This document shows, piece by piece, positions 3,754 through 38,725 of a DNA stretch of 64,000 bases. Location: positions 62,001-126,000 of the forward strand of contig NZ_JAGQCW010000002.1 of the NCBI RefSeq assembly GCF_024346395.1, read 5' to 3'. Numbering within the stretch: the stretch's first letter is position 1; every line of letters starts with the position of its first letter. Position numbers and translations under genes: made by a program. The notes below the pieces were generated by a model. It saw only the letters and a program-made list of their open reading frames with translations. It was not told the origin of the DNA and did not search any database. This DNA comes from Cyanobium sp. AMD-g. Lineage in GTDB: Bacteria > Cyanobacteriota > Cyanobacteriia > PCC-6307 > Cyanobiaceae.

Positions 3754-4257
3754 GTGGAAACGAATGACGCGATTGAGGTGTGCCATCTGGCGGACCCCTC
3801 CGCCACCGACGCCCTGGGGCGGCGGCTGGCCCGGCAGCTGATCGCCGCGGGTGCCGGTGACGGTGCCCTGCTGCTGCTGCGGGGGGAACTGGGCACGGGC
3901 AAGACGTCGCTGGTGCAGGGACTGGCGGCCGCCCTGGGCATCGCCGAACCGATCAGCAGCCCCACCTTCGCCCTGGCCCAGCATTACGACACCGACGCTG
4001 GACCCGACGCCGGCGCCTCTGCCCTCGTGCACCTGGATCTCTACCGGCTGGAGCAGAGCGCCGCGGCCGATGAACTGTTCGCCCAGGAGGAAGAGGAGGC
4101 CCGCCGCATCGGCGCCGTGATGGCGGTGGAGTGGCCCGAGCGGCTCAGCTTCAGGCCGGAGGGTGCCTGGGAAGTGGACTTGAGCCACAACGACGATGGC
4201 GAGGGCCGGTTGGCCCGCATCACCCCACCGCGATCCTTGCCTGCAGCGCCGCGATGA
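3754..4257 (+). CDS. tsaE: tRNA threonylcarbamoyladenosine biosynthesis ATPase TsaE
   Basis: TsaE is the small P-loop ATPase that works with TsaB, TsaC and TsaD to make t6A at position 37 of ANN-decoding tRNAs. In the 167-residue product the Walker A loop GELGTGKT is at residues 44-51, SSPTF at 68-72 and the family motif HLDLYRL at 93-99. The start chosen is GTG at 3754, with GGAGG about 11 bases upstream; the frame continues upstream only as antisense of ahcY and dedA. Its 3' end overlaps the 3' end of mutY by 38 bases on the opposite strand. A recent extension, or the loss of an earlier stop, in one of the pair is possible. Confidence 0.93.
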
Positions 4258-5362
4258 TGCGGGCGTTGGCGGCTGGAAAGGGGTAGCTGGCGAGCTCCTC
4301 CGGTGCCACCCAGCGCACCTGCTGGGACGCCAGTGGCTGCGGCTCCCCCGCCAGCCATTGGCAGAGATGCACCACAAAGCGCAGCCGCTTGTGGCTGTAG
4401 GCGTGCTCGAGGGTGATCAGCTCCTCCGCCACCGTCACCTCGATGGCCAGTTCCTCCCGCAGCTCCCGCTCGATCGTCGCTTCGATCGCTTCACCCGGCT
4501 CCTGCTTGCCCCCCGGAAACTCCCACAGACCTCCCAGCAGGCCCTCCTGGAGCCGCTGGTCGATCAGCACCCTCCCCTGGCCGTCCCGCACCACGCCCAC
4601 CCCGATCACCTGGAAGGGGATGGGGGGGGTGGTGTCCTTCACGGGGAAACGGCCGGGATCGCCGGCAGCGTAGGCAGCACAGCGCCCGTTCCAGGGACAG
4701 GCGCCGCAGTTGGGCTGGCGGGGGGTGCAGACGCCGGCGCCCAGGTCCATCAGGGCCTGGTTGAAGGCGCGGGGCCGTTGGGGGTCGAGCACGGTTTCGC
4801 TCAGCCTCCAGAAGAGAGGCAGCTGCCGCTTCGGTGGCTCCGGATGGGCCGTCAGGCGGGCCAGCACCCGCTGAACGTTGCCATCGAGGATCGGCTGGGC
4901 CAGATCAAAAGCGGACGAAAGGATGCTGGCGGCGGTGCTGCGGCCGATGCCCGGCAGGGCCATCCAGCCTTCCAGCGTGCGCGGCCAGGGATCCCGATCT
5001 GCCGAAAGCACAGGGGGCTCAGCGTCGACCAGTCGCTGCGCTCCGGCGTGCAGGCGGCGGGCCCGGGCGTAATAGCCGAGGCCCTGCCACAGCATCAGCA
5101 CGTCATGCTCGCTGGCGGCGGCGAGGCTTCTGAGGTCGGGGAACGCCGCCATCCAGCGGTGCCAGTAGGGCAGCACCACCGCCAGCTGGGTCTGCTGCAG
5201 CATCACCTCGGCGACCCAGACGCCGAAGGGATCGAGGGGCTCACCGGGCCCGGGGCGAGATCCGTCGGGGCGGAGCTTCCAGGGGATGTGGTGACGGCCG
5301 TTGGACTCCCACCAATCCAGCAGGGAGTCCCGGAGGGGCTCGACCGGGCCCGGTTCCAGCAC
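4220..5362 (-). CDS. mutY: A/G-specific adenine glycosylase MutY
   Basis: MutY removes adenine mispaired with 8-oxoguanine. The 380-residue protein has the helix-hairpin-helix glycosylase core with catalytic Glu52 in EVMLQQTQ, the hairpin LPGIGRSTA, and the catalytic Asp in [10 protein letters not shown] [4Fe-4S] cluster site C-X6-C-X2-C-X5-C follows (CTPRQPNC, then GAC, then PWNGRC). The C-terminal NUDIX-like domain, which recognises 8-oxoG, carries GLWEFPGGK. The start is a GTG at 5362, eight bases after the stop of the upstream 2OG-oxygenase-like gene and with AAGG just before it, so the two are probably cotranscribed. The 3' end overlaps tsaE. Confidence 0.94.
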
Positions 5363-5370
5363 CTCGCGCC

Positions 5371-6090
5371 TTACACGAATCCCCCCGGCCGGGGCCGGGT
5401 GCTGGAGAGGGACACATTGCCCTGGACGGCCCCCTGGGCGGCCACGGGCGAAGCGGCAGGCCGGGGCGGCGGCTGGGGCACGGCGACCACGTTGAAGGCG
5501 ATCGACCAGCGCTCCCCTACACCCCGGAACGGGGGCACCGAGTGGGGTTGCCAGGCCGGAAACACATAGAAATCGCCCGGCACCGGCAGCACGTAGTGGG
5601 CCATGCCGGTGCGGAAGCTCTGGATGTGCCATTCCTCCGGTCCATGGAAGCAGAGCTGGCCGTCGAAGCGCTCCGCATTGATCTGGGGGGGCACCTGCAG
5701 GAACAGCACGCCGGAGAAGCTGCCGCCGTGGGTGTGGGTGGGGTTGTAATCGCCGGCGCGCTGGGCATTGAGCCACAGGTCGATCATCTGCAGGCCGTAG
5801 CGGCCGGGCGTCCAGGGACCCCGGCCCTGGGGCGGCTGCTGGTCGATCACATGGCGGATCCAACGCTCACAGGCCGGCAGGATCACCGAGCGGCAAAGCT
5901 CGGCGGCGGCGGGGTGGTCGGGGCCGAGCTCCCGCTGCTGGGACAGCTGGCCGGCCAGCTTGACCGACGCATCCGGACTGCGTTCGGGCTGGGCCAGCAC
6001 CGCCCGGGCCATGGCCAGCAGATCGGCCAGCTGTGACGGGGGCAACTGGCCCTGCAACAGATAGCGGGGAAAGAGACTGACCACCTCCAT
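5371..6090 (-). CDS. Putative 2OG-Fe(II) oxygenase family protein
   Basis: The product resembles the TIGR02466-type putative 2-oxoglutarate/Fe(II) oxygenases found in cyanobacteria and their phages; substrates are not known. The core shows the metal-site signature NPTHTHGGSFSGV (His-X-His with the SGV strand), a later WQPHSVPPF segment that would supply the distal His, and a following RWSIAFNV strand with the Arg expected to bind 2-oxoglutarate. The start ATG at 6090 is chosen because GGAAGAG lies six bases upstream and the protein then begins MEVVSLFP as usual for the family; upstream ATGs exist at 6120 and 6156. It follows the sigma factor gene and precedes mutY on the same strand. Confidence 0.75.
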   Translation of the reverse strand: MEVVSLFPRYLLQGQLPPSQLADLLAMARAVLAQPERSPDASVKLAGQLSQQRELGPDHPAAAELCRSVILPACERWIRHVIDQQPPQGRGPWTPGRYGLQMIDLWLNAQRAGDYNPTHTHGGSFSGVLFLQVPPQINAERFDGQLCFHGPEEWHIQSFRTGMAHYVLPVPGDFYVFPAWQPHSVPPFRGVGERWSIAFNVVAVPQPPPRPAASPVAAQGAVQGNVSLSSTRPRPGGFV

Positions 6091-6165
6091 CGTGGGCTCT
6101 TCCGGGGGCGTGCCGACCATGGAAGTGAAGGTGCGTGCTGGCCTCAAGCCTCGCAAACGGCGGAA

Positions 6166-7215
6166 TCAGATCGCCACGTAGGCCTCGACGGCGTCGCTGA
6201 GGCGGCGCAGCCCGGCAAGGCCGTCGCGCTCCAGGTTGCGCACCCGGTCGCGGCTGATGCCGAGGATGCGGCCGATGCCGGTGAGGCTCATCGGCTCCTC
6301 GCCATCGATGCCGTAGCGCATCTTCAGCACGCTGCCCTGCAGGTCCGGCAGTTGATCGAGCAGGGCCCGCAGGTCGCCCTTGAGGCACTCGCCATCAACA
6401 AGCTCGGACGGCAGCAGGTCGTCACCGGCCAGCAGATCCAGCAGCTCGGTGTCTTCGCCATCGCCCACCTTTGTTTCGAGGCTCACCGGCTGGCGGGCGC
6501 GGCAGAGCAGGTCTTTGACGTCCTCTTCCGGGAGTTCCACCGCCACCGCCAGCTCGCTGAGGGTGGGGGTGCGGCCCAGCTCCTGGCTCAGCTCCCGCTG
6601 GCCTTTCTTGAGCTTGTTGAGCGTTTCGGTGATGTGGATCGGCAGGCGGATCGTGCGGCTCTTCTCGGCAATCGCCCGGGTGATGCCCTGGCGGATCCAC
6701 CAGTAGGCATAGGTGGAGAACTTGTAGCCGCGGGTGGGGTCGAACTTCTCGACGCCCCGCACCAGGCCGATCGTGCCCTCCTGGATCAGGTCGAGCAGCT
6801 CCATGTTCCGCTTGGTGTATTTCTTGGCCACACTCACCACCAGGCGCAGGTTGGCCGCCACCATCCGCTCCTTGGCGCGGCGGCCGGCGTGCAGGCGCTT
6901 GCGCAGCACCTCGGGCTGCAGGCCCACCGCCAACGCCAGCTCCTGCTGGCTCGGGTCGTTGCCGCCGGAGCGCATCTTCAGCTCTTCACGCATGTCCTCC
7001 AGGGCCATCAGCTCCTGCACCTGGCGGCCCAGGGTGATTTCCTGCTCATGGCTGAGCAGCGGCACCCGGCCGATGTCCCGCAGATAGGAGCGGACCAGGT
7101 CGCCATCGACGGGCGGCATGGAACGGCCCGGGGAAGGGCGAACCACCGTCTGGACATTGACGGGACGGGCAGCGTCGGAGGTCGAGGGCTGGGCAACGGC
7201 GAAGGCGACGACCAT
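6166..7215 (-). CDS. RNA polymerase group 2 sigma-70 factor
   Basis: This is a sigma-70 protein of the primary-like, non-essential group 2 type (SigB/C/D in cyanobacteria), which redirects RNA polymerase during stress or the day-night cycle. The 349 residues contain region 1.2 ([12 protein letters not shown]), region 2 with [26 protein letters not shown] and [12 protein letters not shown] (the -10 recognition helix), region 3, and region 4 with the helix-turn-helix [20 protein letters not shown] that reads the -35 box. It lacks the long acidic region 1.1 of SigA. It lies 77 bases downstream of mgtE on the same strand. Which Sig paralogue it is cannot be decided here. Confidence 0.92.
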
Positions 7216-7292
7216 GGAGCTGATCCATAACTGTCTGTAAAGCGTAACATCAAGAAGTGTGAACTCCTCTCAGAAAGCGCCGATCCGCCGGG

Positions 7293-8681
7293 TCACCCCA
7301 TTCCCAGCCTCGGCAGCAGCAGCTGGGCGGTCTTGAGGTAGATGAAAACGCCTGCCACGTCTGTGGCCGTGGTGATGAACGGGGCCGACATCAGGGCCGG
7401 GTCAAGGCCGAGCCGGTCGAACAGCAGCGGCAGGGCCGCGCCCGCGGTGGCGGCCAGGGTGGTGATCGCCACCAGGCTGATGCCGGCTGAGGTCGCCACC
7501 AGCGCACTGCCCCCCATGGTCCAGGCCCAGGGCACAACCACCACCGCCAGCAGACCGCCCAGCAGCGCCCCGGCGACCAGCTCCCGGCCGATGGTGCGCC
7601 AGGGTCCGAGGGACTGGAGCCGCTGGGTGCTCAGACCCCGGATGACCACGGTGGAGCTCTGGGCGCCGACGTTGCCGCCGGTGCCGATCAACAGCGGAAT
7701 GAAGGCTGCCAGCAGCACCACCTGCTTCAGCACCAGCTGCTCGGAGGCGATCACAGCCGAGGTGCCGGTGTTCGCCACCAGCAGCACCAGCAGCCACACC
7801 ACCCGGCGACGGGCCACGGTGAACAGGTTGCTGCGGAAGTAGTCGTCCTCATCGCCGGCCTGCACGGCGCCGGCGGCGTAGAGGTCGCGGGTGGCCTCCT
7901 GCTGGATGACGTCGATGACGTCGTCCACGGTGACGATTCCCACCAGCCGCTGCTCCCGGTCCACCACCGGCACGGCCAGGAAGTCATAGCGCTGGATCAC
8001 CCGGGCCACCTCCTCCTGGTCGGTGTCGGTGGCGACGCTCATCACCTCCCGCGTCATCACATCCCCCAGCCGGTCCTCCGGATCCGCCGTCACCAGATCC
8101 CGCAGCGAGAGCATGCCGCTGAGGTGACGCGAGGCATCGGTCACGTAGAGGCTGTAGATCGTCTCGGTGTCGCGGGCGCGGCGGCGGACGATGTCGAGGG
8201 CCTGCTGGGCGCTGTGGAATTCCTTGAGGTCGATGAATTCGGTCGTCATCAGACGCCCGGCAGTTTCGGCCTCGTAGCCCAGCATCTGGGCCGTGACCCG
8301 CCGCTCCGCCGGAGAGAGCTCCGCCAGCAGCCGACGCACCACCTTGGCCGGCAGCTCATCGAACAGCCGCACCCGGTCGTCCGGGGACATCTCCTCCACA
8401 AGCTCCAGCACCTCACCGGAGCGCAGCCGCTCCAGCAGGCTCTGCTGCACGGAGCCATCGAGGTACTCGTAGACCTCGATCGCCTCGTTCTTGGGCAGCA
8501 GGCGAAAAGCCAGCGCCTGCAGCGTGCGCGGCAGGGTGCCGATCGCCTCGGCGGAATCCACTGCCTGCACGGGCTGCAGCAGCAGTTTGGCGCCGTCGTA
8601 ATTGCCCGCCTGCAGCAGTCCCTCCAACTGGCGGGCCACCACCTCGGCGACGGCGGAGGCCTCAGCCATCGCTCCTCGCAT
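7293..8681 (-). CDS. mgtE: Magnesium transporter MgtE
   Basis: MgtE is a dimeric Mg2+ channel gated by cytoplasmic Mg2+. The 462-residue product follows the family order: an N domain of helical repeats (LLERLRSGEVLELVEEMSPD), two CBS domains (GMLSLRDLVTADP and VGIVTVDDVIDVI), a connecting plug helix, and a C-terminal membrane domain with about five segments including the pore region IGTGGNVGAQSSTVVIRGL. The ATG at 8681 is used; an in-frame ATG at 8669 has GAGGAG only two bases before it, too close to be a normal ribosome site. It is divergent from the peroxidase gene and upstream of the sigma factor. Confidence 0.94.
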   Translation of the reverse strand: MRGAMAEASAVAEVVARQLEGLLQAGNYDGAKLLLQPVQAVDSAEAIGTLPRTLQALAFRLLPKNEAIEVYEYLDGSVQQSLLERLRSGEVLELVEEMSPDDRVRLFDELPAKVVRRLLAELSPAERRVTAQMLGYEAETAGRLMTTEFIDLKEFHSAQQALDIVRRRARDTETIYSLYVTDASRHLSGMLSLRDLVTADPEDRLGDVMTREVMSVATDTDQEEVARVIQRYDFLAVPVVDREQRLVGIVTVDDVIDVIQQEATRDLYAAGAVQAGDEDDYFRSNLFTVARRRVVWLLVLLVANTGTSAVIASEQLVLKQVVLLAAFIPLLIGTGGNVGAQSSTVVIRGLSTQRLQSLGPWRTIGRELVAGALLGGLLAVVVVPWAWTMGGSALVATSAGISLVAITTLAATAGAALPLLFDRLGLDPALMSAPFITTATDVAGVFIYLKTAQLLLPRLGMG

Positions 8682-8748
8682 GCCGGTGGGTACGAGTGTA
8701 TGGGCTCAGCCGCTAGGGTCCGCGGCGACCTTCCCCTTGTAAAAATCC

Positions 8749-9228
8749 ATGGCGCTGAACGTGAGTGACGTGGTGGTGCGCAGCGCCAGCGGCGAGGAGC
8801 GCCAGCTCGGCGCATGGGCAGGGACGGTGCTGCTGATCGTCAACGTGGCCAGCCGCTGCGGCTTCACCCGCCAGTACGCCGGCCTGCAGGCCCTGCAGGA
8901 CCGCTTCGGACCCCAGGGCTTCGCCGTGCTCGGCTTCCCCTGCAACGACTTCGGCGCCCAGGAACCGGGCACGCTGGAGGAGATCCAGCAGTTCTGCTCC
9001 ACCACCTACGGCGTGGGCTTCGAGCTGTTCGACAAGGTGCATGCGACGGGCTCGAAGACGGCGCCCTACGACACCCTCACCCAGGCCGAACCCGCCGGCG
9101 ACGTGGCCTGGAATTTCGAGAAGTTCCTGATCGGCAAAGACGGCACCGTGCTGGCCCGCTTCAAGAGCGCCGTGGAACCGGACGGGGCTGAGCTGGTTGC
9201 CGCGATCGAGAAAGCGCTGGCCGCCTGA
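8749..9228 (+). CDS. Glutathione peroxidase-like thiol peroxidase
   Basis: This is a thioredoxin-fold peroxidase of the glutathione peroxidase family, likely to reduce lipid or alkyl hydroperoxides; bacterial cysteine forms often use thioredoxin or NADPH rather than glutathione. In the 159 residues the peroxidatic Cys37 sits in VASRCGFT, a second Cys is in FPCNDFG, Gln71 follows, and Trp121-Asn122 are in AWNFEKF, completing the usual catalytic tetrad. It uses a plain cysteine, not selenocysteine. It is divergent from mgtE and convergent with the SH3-like gene, with an 11-base gap. Confidence 0.92.
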   Translation: MALNVSDVVVRSASGEERQLGAWAGTVLLIVNVASRCGFTRQYAGLQALQDRFGPQGFAVLGFPCNDFGAQEPGTLEEIQQFCSTTYGVGFELFDKVHATGSKTAPYDTLTQAEPAGDVAWNFEKFLIGKDGTVLARFKSAVEPDGAELVAAIEKALAA

Positions 9229-9239
9229 ACGTCAGCAGC

Positions 9240-9574
9240 TCAGCCCGCCAGCCAGCCGCGGCTGGGCTGGCCGGCGGCGGTGGAAGCTTCCACCTGGAGC
9301 CAGCGGCGGCCGCCTGGCTCCATCCACTCACGCAACACCCGCAGCGGGGCTCCCGTTTCCAGCCGTGCCAGCACCGGCGCCTGGCAGCGGGGGGCGCAGT
9401 GGAGCCCGACGGTGCCGTTGCTGAGCAGGGGTTCGGCCTGGCGTTCGCGGCGCCGGACATCCGGCAAGCGCCGGTCGCCACCGCCGGCGGGCAGGGCCGC
9501 CGGCGCCAGCAGGGCGAAACCGAGCAAGGCGGCCCAGCGCCAGGCCGGCACAGCCATTGGATGGCGTGGGGTCA

Positions 9575-9575
<1 letters not shown>
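9240..9575 (-). CDS. Hypothetical secreted protein with SH3-like domain
   Basis: The 111-residue product starts with a basic stretch and a hydrophobic segment (WAALLGFALLAPAALPAGG) that fits a cleavable signal peptide, so it should act outside the cytoplasm. The rest, from about residue 45, resembles a bacterial SH3 (SH3b) fold: GTVGLHCAPRC, ARLETGAPLRVL, then GRRWLQV, a pattern often found in proteins that bind cell-wall peptides. Two cysteines (HCAPRC) could form a disulfide. Its ATG overlaps the gyrB stop by one base (TGATG), which suggests translational coupling to gyrB. No precise function can be given. Confidence 0.6.
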
Positions 9576-11533
<1,958 letters not shown>

Positions 11534-31282: not shown

Positions 31283-32014
31283 TTAGTCAACCCGTTTGAG
31301 ATACCCATCCGGAGCCACGCTGATCAACAGCTTGTTGTCGATGTCATTGTCAATATGAAACTCGGGATGGCTCTTCAACCACTCGTGAACAGCCGTTTTT
31401 GGATTGTTTCCCACATCCCACGGACGGTCTGGGAAAGAGCCTGGAGGTAAGTCTTCGATCGCGGTATCGAAAACGATGCAGTAGCTACCAACCGAGACAA
31501 GATCTGCATAGGCATTGAGCTCGGCGAGGACATGCTGGTGGGTGTGGTTGGAATCCAGGGAGACAAGAACATTCTCAGCACTGTCAGCATAGCCACGAGC
31601 TTGCTTGATAATGTCGGGATCAATGGATGATCCCTCAATCAACTGCATTTTGAACCGTAACGGATGCTCATCGAGAGCCTTGCGGTTATGGGGTCGAATA
31701 TCGATGTCAATACCAACGACTTGGCGAGACGAGTGCCGAGGATCGAGGCCATCCATCACATCCAAGAGGCACAGCAAAGAGGCCGAAAGTGCCATGGAAC
31801 CACCATGGGCAATTCCAGTCTCAAGAATGAGGTCCGGGCGCGCTCCAAAGACGATCTCCTGAAAAGCGAGGATATCCTGGGGATACTGAATGATCGGACG
31901 GCCCATCCATTCAAACTTATAGGTATAGCCGATAAGGTTGGTCATCATCGACCATGAGCGGGCCTGCAACTTAAGCCCTTCAACGAAAAGAGATTCGCTA
32001 ATTTGATTTGACAC
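31283..32014 (-). CDS. Cephalosporin hydroxylase (CmcI)-family methyltransferase
   Basis: The 243-residue protein matches the CmcI/RmBH family (PF04989), which includes rhamnosyl O-methyltransferases: GRPIIQYPQDILAFQEIV, the SAM site LILETGIAHGGSMALSA, VVGIDIDIRPHNR, and VLVSLDSNHTHQHVLAEL, then GSYCIVFDTAIED. The Asp and His of the last two are the metal-binding residues of the family. It probably O-methylates a deoxysugar. The start is GTG at 32014. It lies 59 bases downstream of another methyltransferase on the same strand. Confidence 0.88.
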   Translation of the reverse strand: MSNQISESLFVEGLKLQARSWSMMTNLIGYTYKFEWMGRPIIQYPQDILAFQEIVFGARPDLILETGIAHGGSMALSASLLCLLDVMDGLDPRHSSRQVVGIDIDIRPHNRKALDEHPLRFKMQLIEGSSIDPDIIKQARGYADSAENVLVSLDSNHTHQHVLAELNAYADLVSVGSYCIVFDTAIEDLPPGSFPDRPWDVGNNPKTAVHEWLKSHPEFHIDNDIDNKLLISVAPDGYLKRVD

Positions 32015-32073: not shown

Positions 32074-32880
32074 CTAAGGAATCATGCAGGTTACATGCAA
32101 GACATTGCACAGCTCCGGATATTCTGTTCCGATCCTGTAACTTGCCTCACAGAAGCGTTCTTTCCAGTCAACGGAGGTATCGCCGGACCTCCCCCATCCA
32201 TGCTCCGCCGTCTCCCACTGGGGTGCAGAAAGCAAGTGATCCATCTGAGGAGTGGACAGGGTCTTGAAGAAGACTCCGCCCTGATCAACTGGAACCAAGC
32301 CAGCACGCTCAACGTCTTCCAGGAGTGAGGTCATGCAGTAGGAGCGACGGTGACCTGCGATCTCAGTATCAAATGGGGACAACTCTTCACAGTGAGTAAG
32401 ACTCCCCATCAAGACATTCATTTGTCTGTTGATGGCCTTGGCGTTGGGAACATGAACGATAAGGACACCGCCAGGCTTCAAGAATCCATTTAGATGCTTC
32501 AGGAGATCAACCGGTGATTGCACGTGCTCAAGCAAGTCGAGAAGCGTGACAACACTGAATAGATCACTGGAGGCATACTCCTCGGCCAAAGCATTATGGA
32601 ACTCAGCGCCAGGAATGCGCTGCCTGGCCATCTCCACAACGTCGGCATTGGCATCAACGCCAACAACCTTTTCAAATGAACTGGCCAACTGTTCAGTAAT
32701 GTATCCATCTCCACAAGCGATATCCAGGAGAGATCTCCTGTCCGCGTGATCGCGGCAGTGGCGAGCCACCTGCTCAAGACACGAAACCACTTTATACTTA
32801 GCGAGCTGCTTATTGTATTCCGGATGATATCCTGTTCGCGTCCACTTGAATTGTTGTTGGCGTAGAAGCTCTTGGTTCAT
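32074..32880 (-). CDS. Class I SAM-dependent methyltransferase (UbiG-like)
   Basis: The 268-residue product begins QELLRQQQFKWTRTGYHPEYNK and has motif I LLDIACGDGYITEQL, acidic loop VVGVDANADVVEMAR, and VVTLLDLLEHVQSPVDLLKHL with GFLKPGGVLIVHVPN. These mark a Methyltransf_11/23 enzyme. Codon use and GC are lower than in the flanking core genome. It lies 104 bases after the phosphatase-like/SDR fusion gene and 59 before the CmcI-like gene. Confidence 0.87.
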   Translation of the reverse strand: MNQELLRQQQFKWTRTGYHPEYNKQLAKYKVVSCLEQVARHCRDHADRRSLLDIACGDGYITEQLASSFEKVVGVDANADVVEMARQRIPGAEFHNALAEEYASSDLFSVVTLLDLLEHVQSPVDLLKHLNGFLKPGGVLIVHVPNAKAINRQMNVLMGSLTHCEELSPFDTEIAGHRRSYCMTSLLEDVERAGLVPVDQGGVFFKTLSTPQMDHLLSAPQWETAEHGWGRSGDTSVDWKERFCEASYRIGTEYPELCNVLHVTCMIP

Positions 32881-32984: not shown

Positions 32985-34229
32985 TCAGTCGCTCAGCGAA
33001 GAATGCCTAGACGTCCTGATGCAGCTCTGAACATAGTCCATTGGATCAAACTCTTCCGCAGGAATGCCAGACGGAGACAGACTGTCAATAGAATGATATT
33101 GGCTATGAAGACTACCTGCAAAAGCGTTACGTTCAACAGGGGTCTCGAAGACATTCACCCCGCAGACCCTGGCGATTTGCCTACCCAGCTCAGCCACCGA
33201 GATCCTGCATGAATGACGACAAACATGGATGATGTCATTGCCCACACCAGGGGACAGCATCTGTTGCGTCAATTGGCAGACAGCAACCTCCAGACTCATC
33301 ATTGGAACGACGGGAAACCCGTTGCTATACCGATGAATGTAAATATCCTTTCCCGATGAAGCCGTATGGGCGAAGTAGGTCAGGAATCGCGGAAGAATCG
33401 AGTCCCTTGAAAGCAGACAAGGCAGTCGGTAAATCTTAAAGCGCAAACCGCTTGACTGAGCCGCATAGATCAGTTGCTGCTCCTGCAGGCATCGGGCTTG
33501 GGAATAGAGAGAGAAGGGGACGGGGCGGGAAGATTCGACAACCTCATGGTCAGTAGAAGCTTCGAAAACACTCCATGACGAGACGTAATGAAACACGCAG
33601 TTTGCAGCGATGCAGGCCTGGAGAATATCGACGAACTGAACGTATGATTGCTTTGAGCTAAGGTATGAGTTTGGAGGATCAGGATATGCGGAGTGAATGA
33701 GGTCTGTAATCCGGTTCAGACTCAAGACATCTTCATACCTCGTGGATCCTTTTTCTGCATCCCAAGAGTCGTCAAGACTGACGGGAAGAAGGCCACCATT
33801 CATCTTGTGGACACTTTGAAGCAATAGACGGCCCAAAGGTTGATCAGCACCCGTGATGGCGAAGGCTCGTTGGCGTACATCTTCGCTGGAATTGCCTATC
33901 AGGGATCGGAGCAGGCTGGGCTTGATGCATGACTCGACATGCTTCTCTTTGATGAGGATGATCGCATCACCTAAGGGAATGGAACCATGGCGGCTGATCG
34001 CCAGTGCAGCTAAGCAATTACTGCGTGAATGGCCATAATCACAAGCAAAGCACACCTTCCTTCCAAGATTGAGCTGGCCTAGGCCGACAGCAAGAATACC
34101 CTCGACCAATTGCTTTGCATTCCCATCGCCATCAATCAGTGGCCTGCAATCTACAACTAGCCAGCTCGGAGGGATATCGTCAAAGACACTCGCAACAGCA
34201 ATGGTGTCATTATAGACAACAGAGAACAT
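32985..34229 (-). CDS. Fusion of a dual-specificity phosphatase-like domain and an SDR-like reductase/epimerase domain
   Basis: The 414-residue protein has two parts. Residues 1-110 look like a dual-specificity/tyrosine phosphatase fold with the P-loop CDYGHSRS at 63-70 (Cys63-X5-Arg69, matching CxxGxSRS; the His usually before the Cys is Ala). Residues about 120-414 resemble an extended short-chain dehydrogenase: ITGADQPLG (125-133) at the NAD loop, SSWS at 217-220, and YSQAR at 242-246 where YxxxK is expected, so the catalytic Lys is Arg. The start is the ATG that shares one base with the ATP-grasp stop (TAATG), giving coupled translation. I know of no described protein with this pairing; function is unknown. 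Confidence 0.65.
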   Translation of the reverse strand: MFSVVYNDTIAVASVFDDIPPSWLVVDCRPLIDGDGNAKQLVEGILAVGLGQLNLGRKVCFACDYGHSRSNCLAALAISRHGSIPLGDAIILIKEKHVESCIKPSLLRSLIGNSSEDVRQRAFAITGADQPLGRLLLQSVHKMNGGLLPVSLDDSWDAEKGSTRYEDVLSLNRITDLIHSAYPDPPNSYLSSKQSYVQFVDILQACIAANCVFHYVSSWSVFEASTDHEVVESSRPVPFSLYSQARCLQEQQLIYAAQSSGLRFKIYRLPCLLSRDSILPRFLTYFAHTASSGKDIYIHRYSNGFPVVPMMSLEVAVCQLTQQMLSPGVGNDIIHVCRHSCRISVAELGRQIARVCGVNVFETPVERNAFAGSLHSQYHSIDSLSPSGIPAEEFDPMDYVQSCIRTSRHSSLSD

Positions 34230-35263
34230 TAGCCGGCATCCTGTTGAGATGGAACAAAGCACTCAGCGAAAGACCGAAGAGCTAGACCCTCAGAAGGAAC
34301 AGGGTATCTGATGGGAGACCCAGACAGAAGATGGTTCAGAAAGAGTGAGACCTCGTTAACTCCTGCCAGGGCCCTGAGGTATGTAGATGCCGAGAATCGG
34401 GGGTTGATCTCAAATGGCATAATCACCCCATTCTTCAGGCGACACTGGATGTTCAATGGGCCGCTACTCCCCACGGCATCTGCTATTTGCATCGCTGCAG
34501 CTTCTATGTCCCCATCTCGAAAGAACTCACCCTGGGATGATCCAGAAGAGATCAGATGCTCCTGGCCGCGATCGTGCACTGAGAGCATGTTTTGAAATGT
34601 CCTTCGAAGCAATATTGATCCAGCTGCAGTTCCATCTCTTTGGGACAGCACGCCAATCGTCAATTCGTTTGTTGAATCCTTGAGATACTCTTGGCAGATC
34701 CATGAATTTGCGTCGTCAGCATGCAACGAGGCAAAACTGTGGAGGTCGTCGGCATTATAAAGAATACTGATTCCACGGGAGCCTCCACTCTCAATTCGGG
34801 GCTTCACAATGATGGGATAGGTAGCGTCATATGAAAAAGCACCCGTCTCTGAAAGTAAATGGGTCGGCGGGCATGGAATCCCCTGACGAGACAGAAGATC
34901 AAAACACAGGTGCTTATCCGCACAGGTCTTCACGGTAGCCTCATTGTTGCCGACATAAACAGCACCTGCTGCTTTCACATCTTCCTCGATTCCGGCGCAG
35001 ACTCTTGCCACGACGTCACCTCCTGCGATTAGGAAGTCGATCTGCTCTCCAGAAAGAATCTTGAATACGTCTGAGAGGAAGGACACCCCGTTCAGAACAA
35101 ATGTTTGTTTGAATAGGTCAGAATAGTGTCCATAGGCCTGCGGACTGATATCGGCACCAAGTACATCAAAGCCGCCATCCTTAGCCAAGGACTTGGCTAT
35201 CTCCAATCCAAGGGAGGCTCCCGCAATTCCCCAAATCAAGACTTTCGGCCGGGATGAACTCAT
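34229..35263 (-). CDS. ATP-grasp domain ligase of unknown substrate
   Basis: ATP-grasp enzymes join a carboxylate (as acyl-phosphate) to an amine or thiol. The 344-residue product has an N-terminal Rossmann-like pre-ATP domain (KVLIWGIAGASLGLEIAKSL, DVLGADISP), a central ATP-grasp part with YPIIVKPRIESGGSRGI and CQEYLKDSTNELTIGVL, and the C-terminal metal site MPFEINPRFSAST. This resembles carbamoyl-phosphate synthase-type and amino-acid ligases in antibiotic and glycan loci. In this setting it may attach an amino acid or carbamoyl group to an amino sugar. It sits six bases after the aminotransferase and overlaps the fusion gene. Confidence 0.85.
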   Translation of the reverse strand: MSSSRPKVLIWGIAGASLGLEIAKSLAKDGGFDVLGADISPQAYGHYSDLFKQTFVLNGVSFLSDVFKILSGEQIDFLIAGGDVVARVCAGIEEDVKAAGAVYVGNNEATVKTCADKHLCFDLLSRQGIPCPPTHLLSETGAFSYDATYPIIVKPRIESGGSRGISILYNADDLHSFASLHADDANSWICQEYLKDSTNELTIGVLSQRDGTAAGSILLRRTFQNMLSVHDRGQEHLISSGSSQGEFFRDGDIEAAAMQIADAVGSSGPLNIQCRLKNGVIMPFEINPRFSASTYLRALAGVNEVSLFLNHLLSGSPIRYPVPSEGLALRSFAECFVPSQQDAG

Positions 35264-35269
35264 AGGTTG

Positions 35270-36400
35270 TCAGCGCTTGCGAGAGAAATAAGAGTGGACC
35301 TTGTCGCAGACAAACGAAGCATCATCATCCGAGAGATTGTGATGGGAGGGAAGATTGAGCGCTCGCAGATGAATGCCATCAGCGAGATAGGGAGTCTCAA
35401 AGGCCTTGCGGCCACCCGTGGGCGTTGAGCTCAGAGGCCAGAAAAAGACCCTTGCATCCACTCCATTCGATTGCAGCTCTCCGATCAAGTCGTCACGTTG
35501 GAAAGGAGTTTCATCGTCAACCACAAAGGTAGGCATCCAGTAGCCGTTGGTGCAGCCATCCGGCTCAGGATTCATCCTGAGCGGAAGATCCTTCAGTGCC
35601 TCTTGATAGAGCATGAAGATCTTTCGTTTGGCGGTAACAAGTTCATCAATCCGCTGGATCTGTGCGCAGCCGATTGCAGCTTGGACATTACTCATCTTGT
35701 ACTTGAAGCCCACCATATCAGGCCAGAACTGCCTGGTTTGGCCACGGGCACGCCCATGGTTGGAAAGCGTCAACACCTGCTCGTAAAGATCTGGATCGTT
35801 AGTGACAAACATGCCACCTTCGCCTGTGGTGATGGTTTTGGTGCCATGGAAGGAGAATGCACCGAAACGGCCCATACTCCCGGCACGCCTGCCGTGAAAA
35901 ACCGAACCAATCGCCTCAGCGGCATCTTCTATCACGGGGATGCCATGACGCTCTCCAATCGCCAACAGAGCATCCATGTCGCAGAGGTTGCCATAAAGGT
36001 GCACCGCCACGATGGCCTTGGTCCTGGGCGTGATCGCAGCCTCCACCTGCTCGGGATCCAGGCACCAGCTATCCAACAGGATGTCCACAAACACCGGTGT
36101 AGCCCCGAGGTGAACGATGGGGGCGAGCGTCGCAACCCAATTGGAATCTGCCATGATCACCTCATCGCCTGGACCGATACCGAGGCCGTACATACCCATG
36201 TGCAGTGCGCCGGTGCAACTGCTAGTGGCGATGGCATAGGCCACACCCAGGTGGCGTTTGAAGGCCTCCTCGAAGCGGACGATATAGTCGTAGCAATGTT
36301 CACCCCAACCATTGCGGGCTGCATCGGTGGCATAAGCCACCTCCAGTTCCGTGATCGACGGCCTTGTGTAGGGAATTCTGGGGGGGGAGAAGTCGTCCAT
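35270..36400 (-). CDS. DegT/DnrJ/EryC1/StrS family PLP aminotransferase
   Basis: These enzymes put an amino group on a 3- or 4-keto nucleotide sugar, using glutamate and PLP. In the 376 residues the PLP lysine is K188 in SFHGTKTITTGEGG; ATSSCTGALHMGMYGLGIGPGDEV holds the phosphate-binding segment, and VIEDAAEAIG contains the Asp that binds the pyridine nitrogen. It resembles perosamine synthetase-type (4-amino) members. It follows the C-methyltransferase-like gene by three bases, consistent with one operon making a branched amino sugar. Confidence 0.92.
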   Translation of the reverse strand: MDDFSPPRIPYTRPSITELEVAYATDAARNGWGEHCYDYIVRFEEAFKRHLGVAYAIATSSCTGALHMGMYGLGIGPGDEVIMADSNWVATLAPIVHLGATPVFVDILLDSWCLDPEQVEAAITPRTKAIVAVHLYGNLCDMDALLAIGERHGIPVIEDAAEAIGSVFHGRRAGSMGRFGAFSFHGTKTITTGEGGMFVTNDPDLYEQVLTLSNHGRARGQTRQFWPDMVGFKYKMSNVQAAIGCAQIQRIDELVTAKRKIFMLYQEALKDLPLRMNPEPDGCTNGYWMPTFVVDDETPFQRDDLIGELQSNGVDARVFFWPLSSTPTGGRKAFETPYLADGIHLRALNLPSHHNLSDDDASFVCDKVHSYFSRKR

Positions 36401-36403
36401 GAC

Positions 36404-37645
36404 TCAGATGACCGTGAGGATGGGGATCGCCACCTTCACAGGGATGTCGATCCTGCCTCTGAGCTGGGCCTTCACTTCGCCCGCCAGGTTCCATGGAAGC
36501 ACAAGGAGCTCATCAGGCTGCCGCTCCAGGAGAGCATCAACATCAATGATGGGAATGTGGCTTCCTGGCAGCCATTTTCCAATCTTGCTGGGGGCAAGAT
36601 CGGCCACCGCTTCCAACAGGTCGCTGCGGATGCCTGCGAAATTCAACAGGGTGTTTCCCTTGGCCGCGGCACCATAGGCAAGCACCCGCTTCCCGGACCG
36701 GCGAGCAGCCAGCAAGTACTCCATCAGCGCAAACTTGGCTTCCAAGGCGCGCTCCTGGCAGCGGTCGTAAGCCTCCAGGGACGTGAGCCCGGCTGCGGAC
36801 TCCTCCGCCAGGACCCCTTCCACAGCCTGCCGTTCCTGCGGCGTCTGGTCAGCAGCGGCAGGATCCCCGCTACGGGCAAGCCATACCCTCAGGCTGCCGC
36901 CATGGGTAGTGATCTGCTCGGCGTCGAGCACCATCAGCCCGGCATCCTCAGCCATCCGCTGCAGAGTCGTAATGCTCAGGTAGCTGTAGTGCTCGTGATA
37001 GATCGTGTCGAACTGGTTGCCGTCAAGCAATCGCAACAAGTGGGGAAACTCCACAGAGGCCACACCAGAGGGCTTGAGGACACGGGATATTGCCGCCAGG
37101 AAGTCATTGATGTCTGGGACATGCGCGAGCACGTTGTTGGCCACCAAAAGATCGGCCCGGAAACCCTGGGAAACCAGCTCGGCGGCAAAATCGCCACCGA
37201 AGAATCGCTCATGCGTGTCGATACCTTTGCTCCTCGCGGCCTCCGCCGTAGCACGGGTTGGCTCGATGCCAAGGCACGGAATCCCTTGCGCCTTCACGTA
37301 CTGGAGCAGGTAGCCATCATTGCTGGCCACCTCAACTACCAGACTGCCTGGACCGAGCGAAAGGCGATCAAGGGCCGCCTTGACGAACCGCTCCGCATGT
37401 TGACACCAAGTGATGGAAGTGCTGGAAAAGTAGGCATAATCCGCAGTGAACAATTCATCCGCTGGTGCATGCATGGGCAGCTGCACGAGCCAGCAGTTCG
37501 AGCACACATACACACGCAGAGGAAACGTGATTTCCGGCAGACTCAGCTTCGCCTCGCTCAGATAGGCATTGCTGGGCGGCTGATGGCCGAGATCAATGAC
37601 TTCATGCTGCAGTGGAGTTCCGCAGTGTCGGCAGTGGTGGGTCAC
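36404..37645 (-). CDS. Sugar C-methyltransferase-like protein (TylC3/NovU type)
   Basis: The 413-residue protein has three parts typical of this family: an N-terminal zinc-binding part with CRHCGTPL and CSNCWLVQ (two CXXC pairs), a SAM-binding part with VVEVASNDGYLLQYV and DLLVANNVLAHVPDINDF, and a C-terminal part with VLAYGAAAKGNTLLNFAGI. Such enzymes methylate a carbon of a dTDP-4-keto sugar to give branched sugars, although members also occur with other roles. Its start overlaps the stop of the RmlC-like gene by four bases (ATGA). Confidence 0.9.
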   Translation of the reverse strand: MTHHCRHCGTPLQHEVIDLGHQPPSNAYLSEAKLSLPEITFPLRVYVCSNCWLVQLPMHAPADELFTADYAYFSSTSITWCQHAERFVKAALDRLSLGPGSLVVEVASNDGYLLQYVKAQGIPCLGIEPTRATAEAARSKGIDTHERFFGGDFAAELVSQGFRADLLVANNVLAHVPDINDFLAAISRVLKPSGVASVEFPHLLRLLDGNQFDTIYHEHYSYLSITTLQRMAEDAGLMVLDAEQITTHGGSLRVWLARSGDPAAADQTPQERQAVEGVLAEESAAGLTSLEAYDRCQERALEAKFALMEYLLAARRSGKRVLAYGAAAKGNTLLNFAGIRSDLLEAVADLAPSKIGKWLPGSHIPIIDVDALLERQPDELLVLPWNLAGEVKAQLRGRIDIPVKVAIPILTVI

Positions 37646-38190
37646 AGCAGGCGCTCCAGGAGGGGCAGCGACCGGTCACGCTCACTCAATTCCCTGGGCT
37701 GCATCGGCCAGTCGATGCCGAGCTGTGGATCATCCCATCGCACACCCGTCTCCTCCGAAGGGCGATAGGGAGCCCCGTGAAGGTAAAGCAAGGTGCTGTC
37801 CGGCTCTAGCACCTGAAACCCATGGGCACAGCCCGTAGGGATTAGCAGTGAGTTCCCCGCTTCGGCGCTGAGGTCCACCGCCACCCAGTGGCCACGCGTC
37901 GCGGAGCCCGGCCGCAGGTCAACAGCCACATCCCATACACGCCCCACCACGCAGGTGACCAAGCGAACCTCGGGAGGTGTTCCCCGTTGCAGATGCAGTC
38001 CCCGGAGCGTGCCGGGGCTTGGGTTGTGGCTGAGATTCACCTGCTCGATCGGCCGATCCCATCCCCAGAGCTGGTTCCATTCCTCACGCCGGAAGACATT
38101 CAGGAAGCGGCCACGATGATCGCCGTGCGGCTGGCGCCGGATCTCCAGCACACCTTCGAGGGCCGTGGCGCGGTGGCTGGGGTCGGCCAT
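37642..38190 (-). CDS. RmlC-like dTDP-4-keto sugar epimerase (divergent)
   Basis: A cupin of 182 residues similar to dTDP-4-dehydrorhamnose 3,5-epimerase: NPSPGTLRGLHLQRG supplies the catalytic His, VGRVWDVAVDLRPGSATRGHWV and LIPTGCAHGFQVL follow the RmlC fold. It is clearly different from the rfbC gene at 41159-41758 and more likely acts on the branched or amino sugar of this operon as a 3- or 5-epimerase. The ATG at 38190 is one base after the stop of the broken upstream gene; the frame extends to 38229 but that part lies in the upstream gene. Confidence 0.82.
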   Translation of the reverse strand: MADPSHRATALEGVLEIRRQPHGDHRGRFLNVFRREEWNQLWGWDRPIEQVNLSHNPSPGTLRGLHLQRGTPPEVRLVTCVVGRVWDVAVDLRPGSATRGHWVAVDLSAEAGNSLLIPTGCAHGFQVLEPDSTLLYLHGAPYRPSEETGVRWDDPQLGIDWPMQPRELSERDRSLPLLERLL

Positions 38191-38191
38191 C

Positions 38192-38725
38192 TCAGGCGAG
38201 GGTGGGCCGGCGCAGCACGGTGAAGGCATCGAGATTCTGAATGATGGGCCAGATCACCCCTTCCCACTGCTTCTGGATGTAAGGCTCAGCGTCACGGTAA
38301 TAGTTGCCTTCTACGTGGGCGTCACGACACTGGGCAATGGTTTTGAGACGAATCATCTCGAGCGCCACAGCACCGCAGACGGAAGCCGCATCCTCCTGAT
38401 CCAGCCGCCTGGAAGCCTGCTGAAGATCGGCAGCCATTCGATTCTGAAGCTCCTCCTGGAAGCAAAGAATCACGCCACGACGTGTCAGGTCATGGGACAG
38501 AACCTGTACGCGGACGCTGTCGGGAAAGTCCGCCTTCACAAGCCCGATTAGATCAAGCCATGGCACCAACCGGATCGGACTCTTCTGGACCCGCTCGATG
38601 GCCTGTCTCCTGGAGGACGGAGGACGGCTTGCCGACGAAGCGGCGTTATGACCCAACTTACTCCGGATCCTGGCCGCCAGCGAACTCATCGAAATCCGAT
38701 CCACGTCAGAACTCCATTCTCCCAT
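38192..38725 (-). pseudogene. Truncated methyltransferase (N-terminal part only)
   Basis: The 177-residue frame ends with NYYRDAEPYIQKQWEGVIWP followed by IIQNLDAFTVL. In cyanobacterial polysaccharide loci this pattern comes immediately before the SAM motif I (DLxxGHGRN) of a class I methyltransferase. Here the frame stops six codons after TVL, exactly where the motif should start, and the RmlC-like gene begins one base later. So only the N-terminal accessory region is left and the SAM-binding domain is missing. The N-terminal 60 residues are basic and Ser-rich. It may be translated but should have no methyltransferase activity. Confidence 0.6.

Follow-up and report, generated by a model that had tools for sequence, protein, structure and literature searches.

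A CX5R phosphatase-like domain fused to a degenerate SDR beside an ATP-grasp ligase in a Cyanobium polysaccharide cluster

Gene arrangement and relatives of the fusion

The DNA analysed here, a 64-kb window from a freshwater Cyanobium, carries on its minus strand a two-domain gene (32985..34229) whose 414-aa product joins a CX5R phosphatase-like domain to a degenerate extended SDR. The ATG lies at 34229 and the stop codon at 32985-32987, and the start overlaps the stop codon of an adjacent ATP-grasp gene in the sequence TAATG. The translation contained the motifs CDYGHSRS (residues 63-70), ITGADQPLG (residues 125-133), and YSQAR (residues 242-246). The initial annotation had quoted these three motifs and the same coordinates, and its sequence observation on this gene was confirmed.

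The ATP-grasp gene (34229..35263, minus strand) encodes a carbamoyl-phosphate-synthase-like ligase of the NF009402 / PRK12767.1-1 type (239 bits, cut-off 218), which also matched the ATPgrasp_Ter and CPSase_L_D2 models. On the same strand follow a DegT/DnrJ/EryC1 sugar aminotransferase (35270..36400, PF01041, E 2e-121), a sugar C-methyltransferase of the Methyltransf_13/14 kind (36404..37645, PF08421 and PF08484), and a dTDP-4-dehydrorhamnose 3,5-epimerase-like gene (37642..38229, PF00908, E 7e-56). On the other side of the fusion, also on the minus strand, lie a SAM methyltransferase (32074..32880) and an RMNT_CmcI-type methyltransferase (31283..32014). One related cyanobacterial locus, L044 (genome G539), shares with the window the DegT gene (46% identity), the CmcI-type methyltransferase (62% identity), and another methyltransferase, which is 27% identical to the SAM methyltransferase of the window. 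The cluster is of the ABC-exporter (Wzm/Wzt) type. Given the RmlC-type epimerase, C-methyltransferase, and DegT genes, its predicted product is an ABC-exported surface polysaccharide with a modified deoxysugar, probably amino and C-methylated.

Next to the epimerase-like gene, a methyltransferase-like ORF (38192-38725, minus strand) is 177 aa long, compared with 333 aa for its counterpart in Cyanobium sp. Aljojuca 7A6 (L002 3037-4038). The window copy appears to have lost about 156 internal residues, in frame, between two 'LD' sites, and both of its ends are well conserved.

The fusion was present in only two Cyanobium genomes, that of the window and Aljojuca 7A6 (L002). The Aljojuca 7A6 copy was 92% identical, with unchanged gene order and an identical P-loop, and it retained C63 and R69. 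The initial annotation had made its phosphatase reading depend on homologues keeping these two residues; the sole homologue did so, which at 92% identity carries little weight. Because the fusion occurs in two close genomes only, the conservation of C63, R69, and D33 was weakly tested. The dN/dS values between the two genomes were 0.17 for residues 1-115, 0.25 for residues 123-414, and 0.15 for the ATP-grasp gene. The first two values indicate that both halves of the fusion are maintained by purifying selection. For residues 56-80 around the P-loop the value was 0.06, calculated from few changes.

Beyond this pair, neither the genome collection, in a scan reaching close relatives only, nor 400 genomes of the family yielded a relative with the N-terminal domain. 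Plasmids, phages, and viral contigs, queried with the whole protein or the N-terminal domain, gave no credible relative of the fusion. A Rhizobium leguminosarum match (62% identity over 21 residues) was rejected, as its frame was unrelated. Across the phylum, the N-terminal domain search returned chance-level matches and the full CxxGx[ST]R[ST] loop occurred in 0 matching proteins. The CDYGxSRSN DNA pattern had three other matches in 242 genomes. A match in genome G852 that spelled the CDYGxSRSN peptide was discarded because no matching protein had a listed open frame there.

The two halves of the fusion protein

To characterise residues 1-115 (33885..34229), we compared them with dual-specificity phosphatases (DSPs) by several profile methods. 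DSPc (PF00782) was the sole Pfam match, with 14.2 bits for the window protein and 15.4 bits for the Aljojuca 7A6 relative, both short of the curated cut-off of 33.5 bits. In this match the P-loop (residues 63-70, 34020..34043) and C63/R69 were in register. CDYGHSRS satisfies the CX5R signature with Ser/Thr after the Arg, and L002 keeps it. Against a profile of 28 cyanobacterial dual-specificity-type phosphatases, hhalign gave 89% probability over residues 30-111 with a score of 38.4 (E 2.3e-6, a value that refers to one single comparison), while the best score of 150 column shuffles was 20.8. The hmmsearch scores against the DSPs were 13.4 and 16.3 bits, and 1000 shuffles reached at most 4.1. 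These margins place the phosphatase resemblance beyond chance. The reversed sequence gave 0.7% against the DSP profile, and the N-terminal domain itself gave less than 0.5% against each of six control profiles (metallophosphatase, HAD, PHP, SDR, ATP-grasp, and DegT). D33, C63, and R69 were in register with the DSP profile, and D33, in the context LIDG, aligned with the motif's Asp in the DSPs, where the general acid usually lies; D33 is thus a candidate for this role.

True DSPs scored 98-100% in leave-one-out comparisons with the same profile, so at 89% the N-terminal domain is a distant or shortened member of the family. Judged by its sequence, it is a relative of the dual-specificity-type phosphatases, as the initial annotation had proposed; Pfam DSPc, hhalign, and hmmsearch all pointed there.

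The initial annotation had also tied its reading to the fold of residues 1-110. AlphaFold models were of low confidence both for the full-length protein (two sequences, pLDDT 31) and for the N-terminal domain (three sequences, pLDDT 48), and the alignment behind the latter included a row from a viral DSP, a possible source of bias. A scan for viral DSPs to deepen the alignment yielded one locus. With the pLDDT 48 model, the nine best Foldseek rows were DSP/PTP structures with E values of 0.6 or worse, and the top VIA-align rows were DSP/PTP structures at Z about 5. Cytochrome P450 reductase chains also appeared in VIA-align at lower Z than DSP/PTP, and were not considered meaningful. DSP/PTP structures thus ranked first, in a low-confidence model, and neither this comparison nor the homologue refuted the phosphatase reading. 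Since both models were weak and a viral DSP row was included, we treat the structural matches as supporting evidence only.

The N-terminal domain has 62 residues ahead of the Cys, compared with roughly 85-90 in many DSPs. With this short upstream part, the domain may lack a substrate-recognition region. It could then be a pseudophosphatase, which would bind a phosphorylated sugar or precursor and regulate or anchor the ATP-grasp complex with no turnover. The weak DSP match, the shortness of the domain, and the degeneracy of its SDR partner (Q130, R246) agree with such a role. However, all the catalytic residues that were checked (D33, C63, R69, and S70) are present, the P-loop surroundings are constrained (with the low dN/dS and few changes noted above), and recognisable phosphatases hold the same position in other loci. 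We consider a pseudophosphatase unlikely.

Residues 123-414 (32988..33863) matched PF04321 (RmlD_sub_bind, 29.2 bits, cut-off 27) and PF01370 (Epimerase, 28.9 bits, cut-off 20.9), and hhalign gave 94.9% against the SDRs of related loci. This agrees with the earlier assignment of the C-terminal domain to the extended SDRs with YxxxK changed to YxxxR. The motif reads Y242..R246 (YSQAR) in both the window protein and its Aljojuca 7A6 relative, whereas an alignment showed the Lys kept in all seven SDRs that adjoin related ATP-grasp genes. The TGxxGxxG nucleotide loop reads TGADQPLG, with the middle Gly changed to Gln130. The Lys of YxxxK is catalytic in SDR enzymes, so its replacement makes loss of activity likely and the SDR half is probably disabled.

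A working reductase or epimerase with Arg in place of Lys, in a protein whose two domains run consecutive steps, seems rather improbable. Such an enzyme would fit the retention of Tyr242, the SDR family match, and the purifying selection on this half. The standalone SDRs with intact YxxxK beside related ATP-grasp genes also mean that the wider pathway may include a redox or epimerase step. On the other hand, the fusion has lost both the Lys and the nucleotide loop's middle Gly, and the seven comparison SDRs without exception keep the Lys.

Phosphatases beside related ATP-grasp genes

We searched 386 cyanobacterial genomes with NF009402 and read the neighbourhoods of the matches. Neighbouring genes came partly from simple ORF calling, with subsequent Pfam checks for most of the phosphatases. 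Among the ten best-scoring other cyanobacterial loci (176 bits or more), a phosphatase gene abutted or overlapped the ATP-grasp gene in nine. The phosphatase was calcineurin-like in seven loci (G123, G539, G632, G682, G700, G560, and G417), and of the PHP type in G443, where it was recognised by sequence without a profile, and in Sinorhizobium. HAD phosphatases were found in three loci, G713 and the weaker-scoring G623 and G697, the last with a Pfam match slightly below the cut-off. As the comparison set for this frequency we used the seven weaker, more distant ATP-grasp homologues, of which two (G623 and G697) had the adjacent HAD and five had no adjacent phosphatase. The association with a phosphatase thus tracks the ATP-grasp subfamily (9/10 best loci, 2/7 weaker loci). 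That related clusters have three other, unrelated kinds of phosphatase in this position suggests that phosphate removal is a regular step of this little-studied pathway.

The exception among the ten best loci was G684, which has no adjacent phosphatase. There (L082, about 4132-9805) the ATP-grasp gene lies beside a NeuB-like gene, two xylose-isomerase-like genes of the AP_endonuc_2 type, and a small SDR; this locus is possibly a variant pathway without an adjacent phosphatase. In two of the loci with a calcineurin-like gene (L081 in G560 and L083 in G417), the ATP-grasp and phosphatase pair adjoins genes that from their sequence look like NeuB, PseG-like, and cytidylyltransferase genes, an arrangement suggesting that nonulosonic-acid loci use the pair too.

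The gene order in Sinorhizobium medicae is PHP, ATP-grasp, and NAD(P)-dependent oxidoreductase. On plasmid pMl3 (L045, 7261-9922) this set adjoins the sulfate-activation genes cysD, nodQ, and cysQ, and its ATP-grasp match recurs in >70 Sinorhizobium plasmid records.

Among the window proteins scanned around the fusion, there was no match to another phosphatase family (calcineurin-like, PHP, or HAD). With no other phosphatase found nearby, the CX5R domain fills the slot beside the ATP-grasp gene. The simplest reading is a non-orthologous replacement, in which the CX5R domain, fused to an SDR, takes the phosphatase slot of the module. The working link with the ATP-grasp gene that the initial annotation drew from coupled translation is backed by the recurrence of this arrangement in other genomes.

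We also considered a protein tyrosine phosphatase that steers polysaccharide assembly, in the manner of the bacterial Wzb-type phosphatases that control Wzc kinases. The location within a polysaccharide locus and the kinship with the DSP family in profile comparison would suit this role. However, the cluster is of the Wzm/Wzt type, no Wzc-type tyrosine kinase match was found among the scanned proteins, and the gene is linked to an ATP-grasp ligase. Moreover, the enzymes that hold the same position elsewhere (PHP, HAD, and calcineurin-like) are typical small-molecule phosphatases, and the SDR fusion gives no hint of a kinase partner. A Wzb/Wzc-like role is therefore very unlikely.

Proposed role and relation to known systems

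Our preferred reading, to which we give a probability of about 0.6, is that the fusion is a biosynthetic CX5R phosphatase whose substrate is an intermediate that the ATP-grasp ligase either makes or uses, with the SDR half as a binding part. ATP-grasp enzymes activate a carboxylate as an acyl phosphate and then join it to an amine. In the proposed scheme, whose catalytic activity, substrate, reaction order, and SDR role we infer, the fusion would act together with the adjacent ligase. The ligase would link a small building block, through an amide or peptide-like bond, to the DegT-made amino sugar or to another sugar intermediate. The phosphate would sit on the building block or on the joined product, and the CX5R domain would strip it; ligation of the phosphorylated unit and dephosphorylation could occur in either order. 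Dephosphorylation would proceed via a phosphocysteine on Cys63; Arg69 would bind the phosphate, and Asp33 would be the general acid. Most likely, the SDR half would bind the nucleotide-sugar or sugar substrate and present it to the phosphatase, while itself having little redox activity or none. Taken as a whole, the interpretation offered by the initial annotation was partly supported.

The same logic of ligation and dephosphorylation is known from the Campylobacter jejuni capsule, and we propose it for the Cyanobium fusion and its ATP-grasp partner. In Campylobacter, serinol phosphate or ethanolamine phosphate is the substrate of an ATP-grasp amidoligase, and the chain can grow only after the HAD enzyme Cj1435 has taken the phosphate off (PMC11800379, PMC13276843). 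The pair of Cj1438, an ATP-grasp amidoligase, and Cj1435 resembles the window in function only: an ATP-grasp enzyme attaches a phosphorylated unit to a glycan, and the phosphate is removed afterwards (PMC11800379, PMC13276843). It differs in having a TupA-like ATP-grasp family and a HAD phosphatase with no SDR fusion, in contrast to NF009402 and CX5R in the window.

More broadly, and tentatively, these loci may represent a conserved surface-glycan module that combines one ATP-grasp type with an obligatory dephosphorylation, its phosphatase slot taken in evolution by four or more unrelated folds. In Cyanobium, a CX5R domain of the protein-phosphatase type would then have become a dedicated sugar-intermediate phosphatase, which binds its substrate through a disabled SDR. 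If this is true, uncharacterised ATP-grasp genes of polysaccharide loci gain a testable function, and any phosphatase that adjoins such a ligase would be expected to work on one common phosphorylated intermediate. It would also make a DSP-type domain a biosynthetic enzyme and a degenerate SDR a repurposed substrate-binding partner.

Taken singly, DSP domains, SDRs, and ATP-grasp/phosphatase pairings are known kinds. We found no description of a DSP-SDR fusion, of its place as a fourth phosphatase fold in the ATP-grasp-adjacent position, or of the ATP-grasp/phosphatase/SDR arrangement in the literature searched, which left most subscription journals outside it. The 2009 amidoligase survey of Iyer et al. 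may cover parts of this neighbourhood.

Compared with DSPc (PF00782), the N-terminal domain has the same CX5R P-loop (CDYGHSRS), the upstream Asp in its LIDG context, and the helix pattern after the P-loop. Unlike DSPc, it scores below the cut-off, is shorter upstream, is fused to an SDR, and lies in a biosynthetic ATP-grasp operon. The C-terminal half resembles the extended SDR/RmlD-like proteins (PF04321, PF01370) in its above-cut-off family match, and departs from them in YSQAR for YxxxK and Gln for the middle Gly of the nucleotide loop. The closest arrangements were six ATP-grasp, phosphatase, and SDR modules from cyanobacterial and Sinorhizobium loci (L043, L044, L077, L078, L080, and L045), which have the same ATP-grasp type with a phosphatase adjacent. 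In these modules, unlike the fusion, a separate gene encodes the phosphatase, whose fold is calcineurin-like, HAD, or PHP; all six also have an SDR, which keeps the YxxxK that the fusion has lost.
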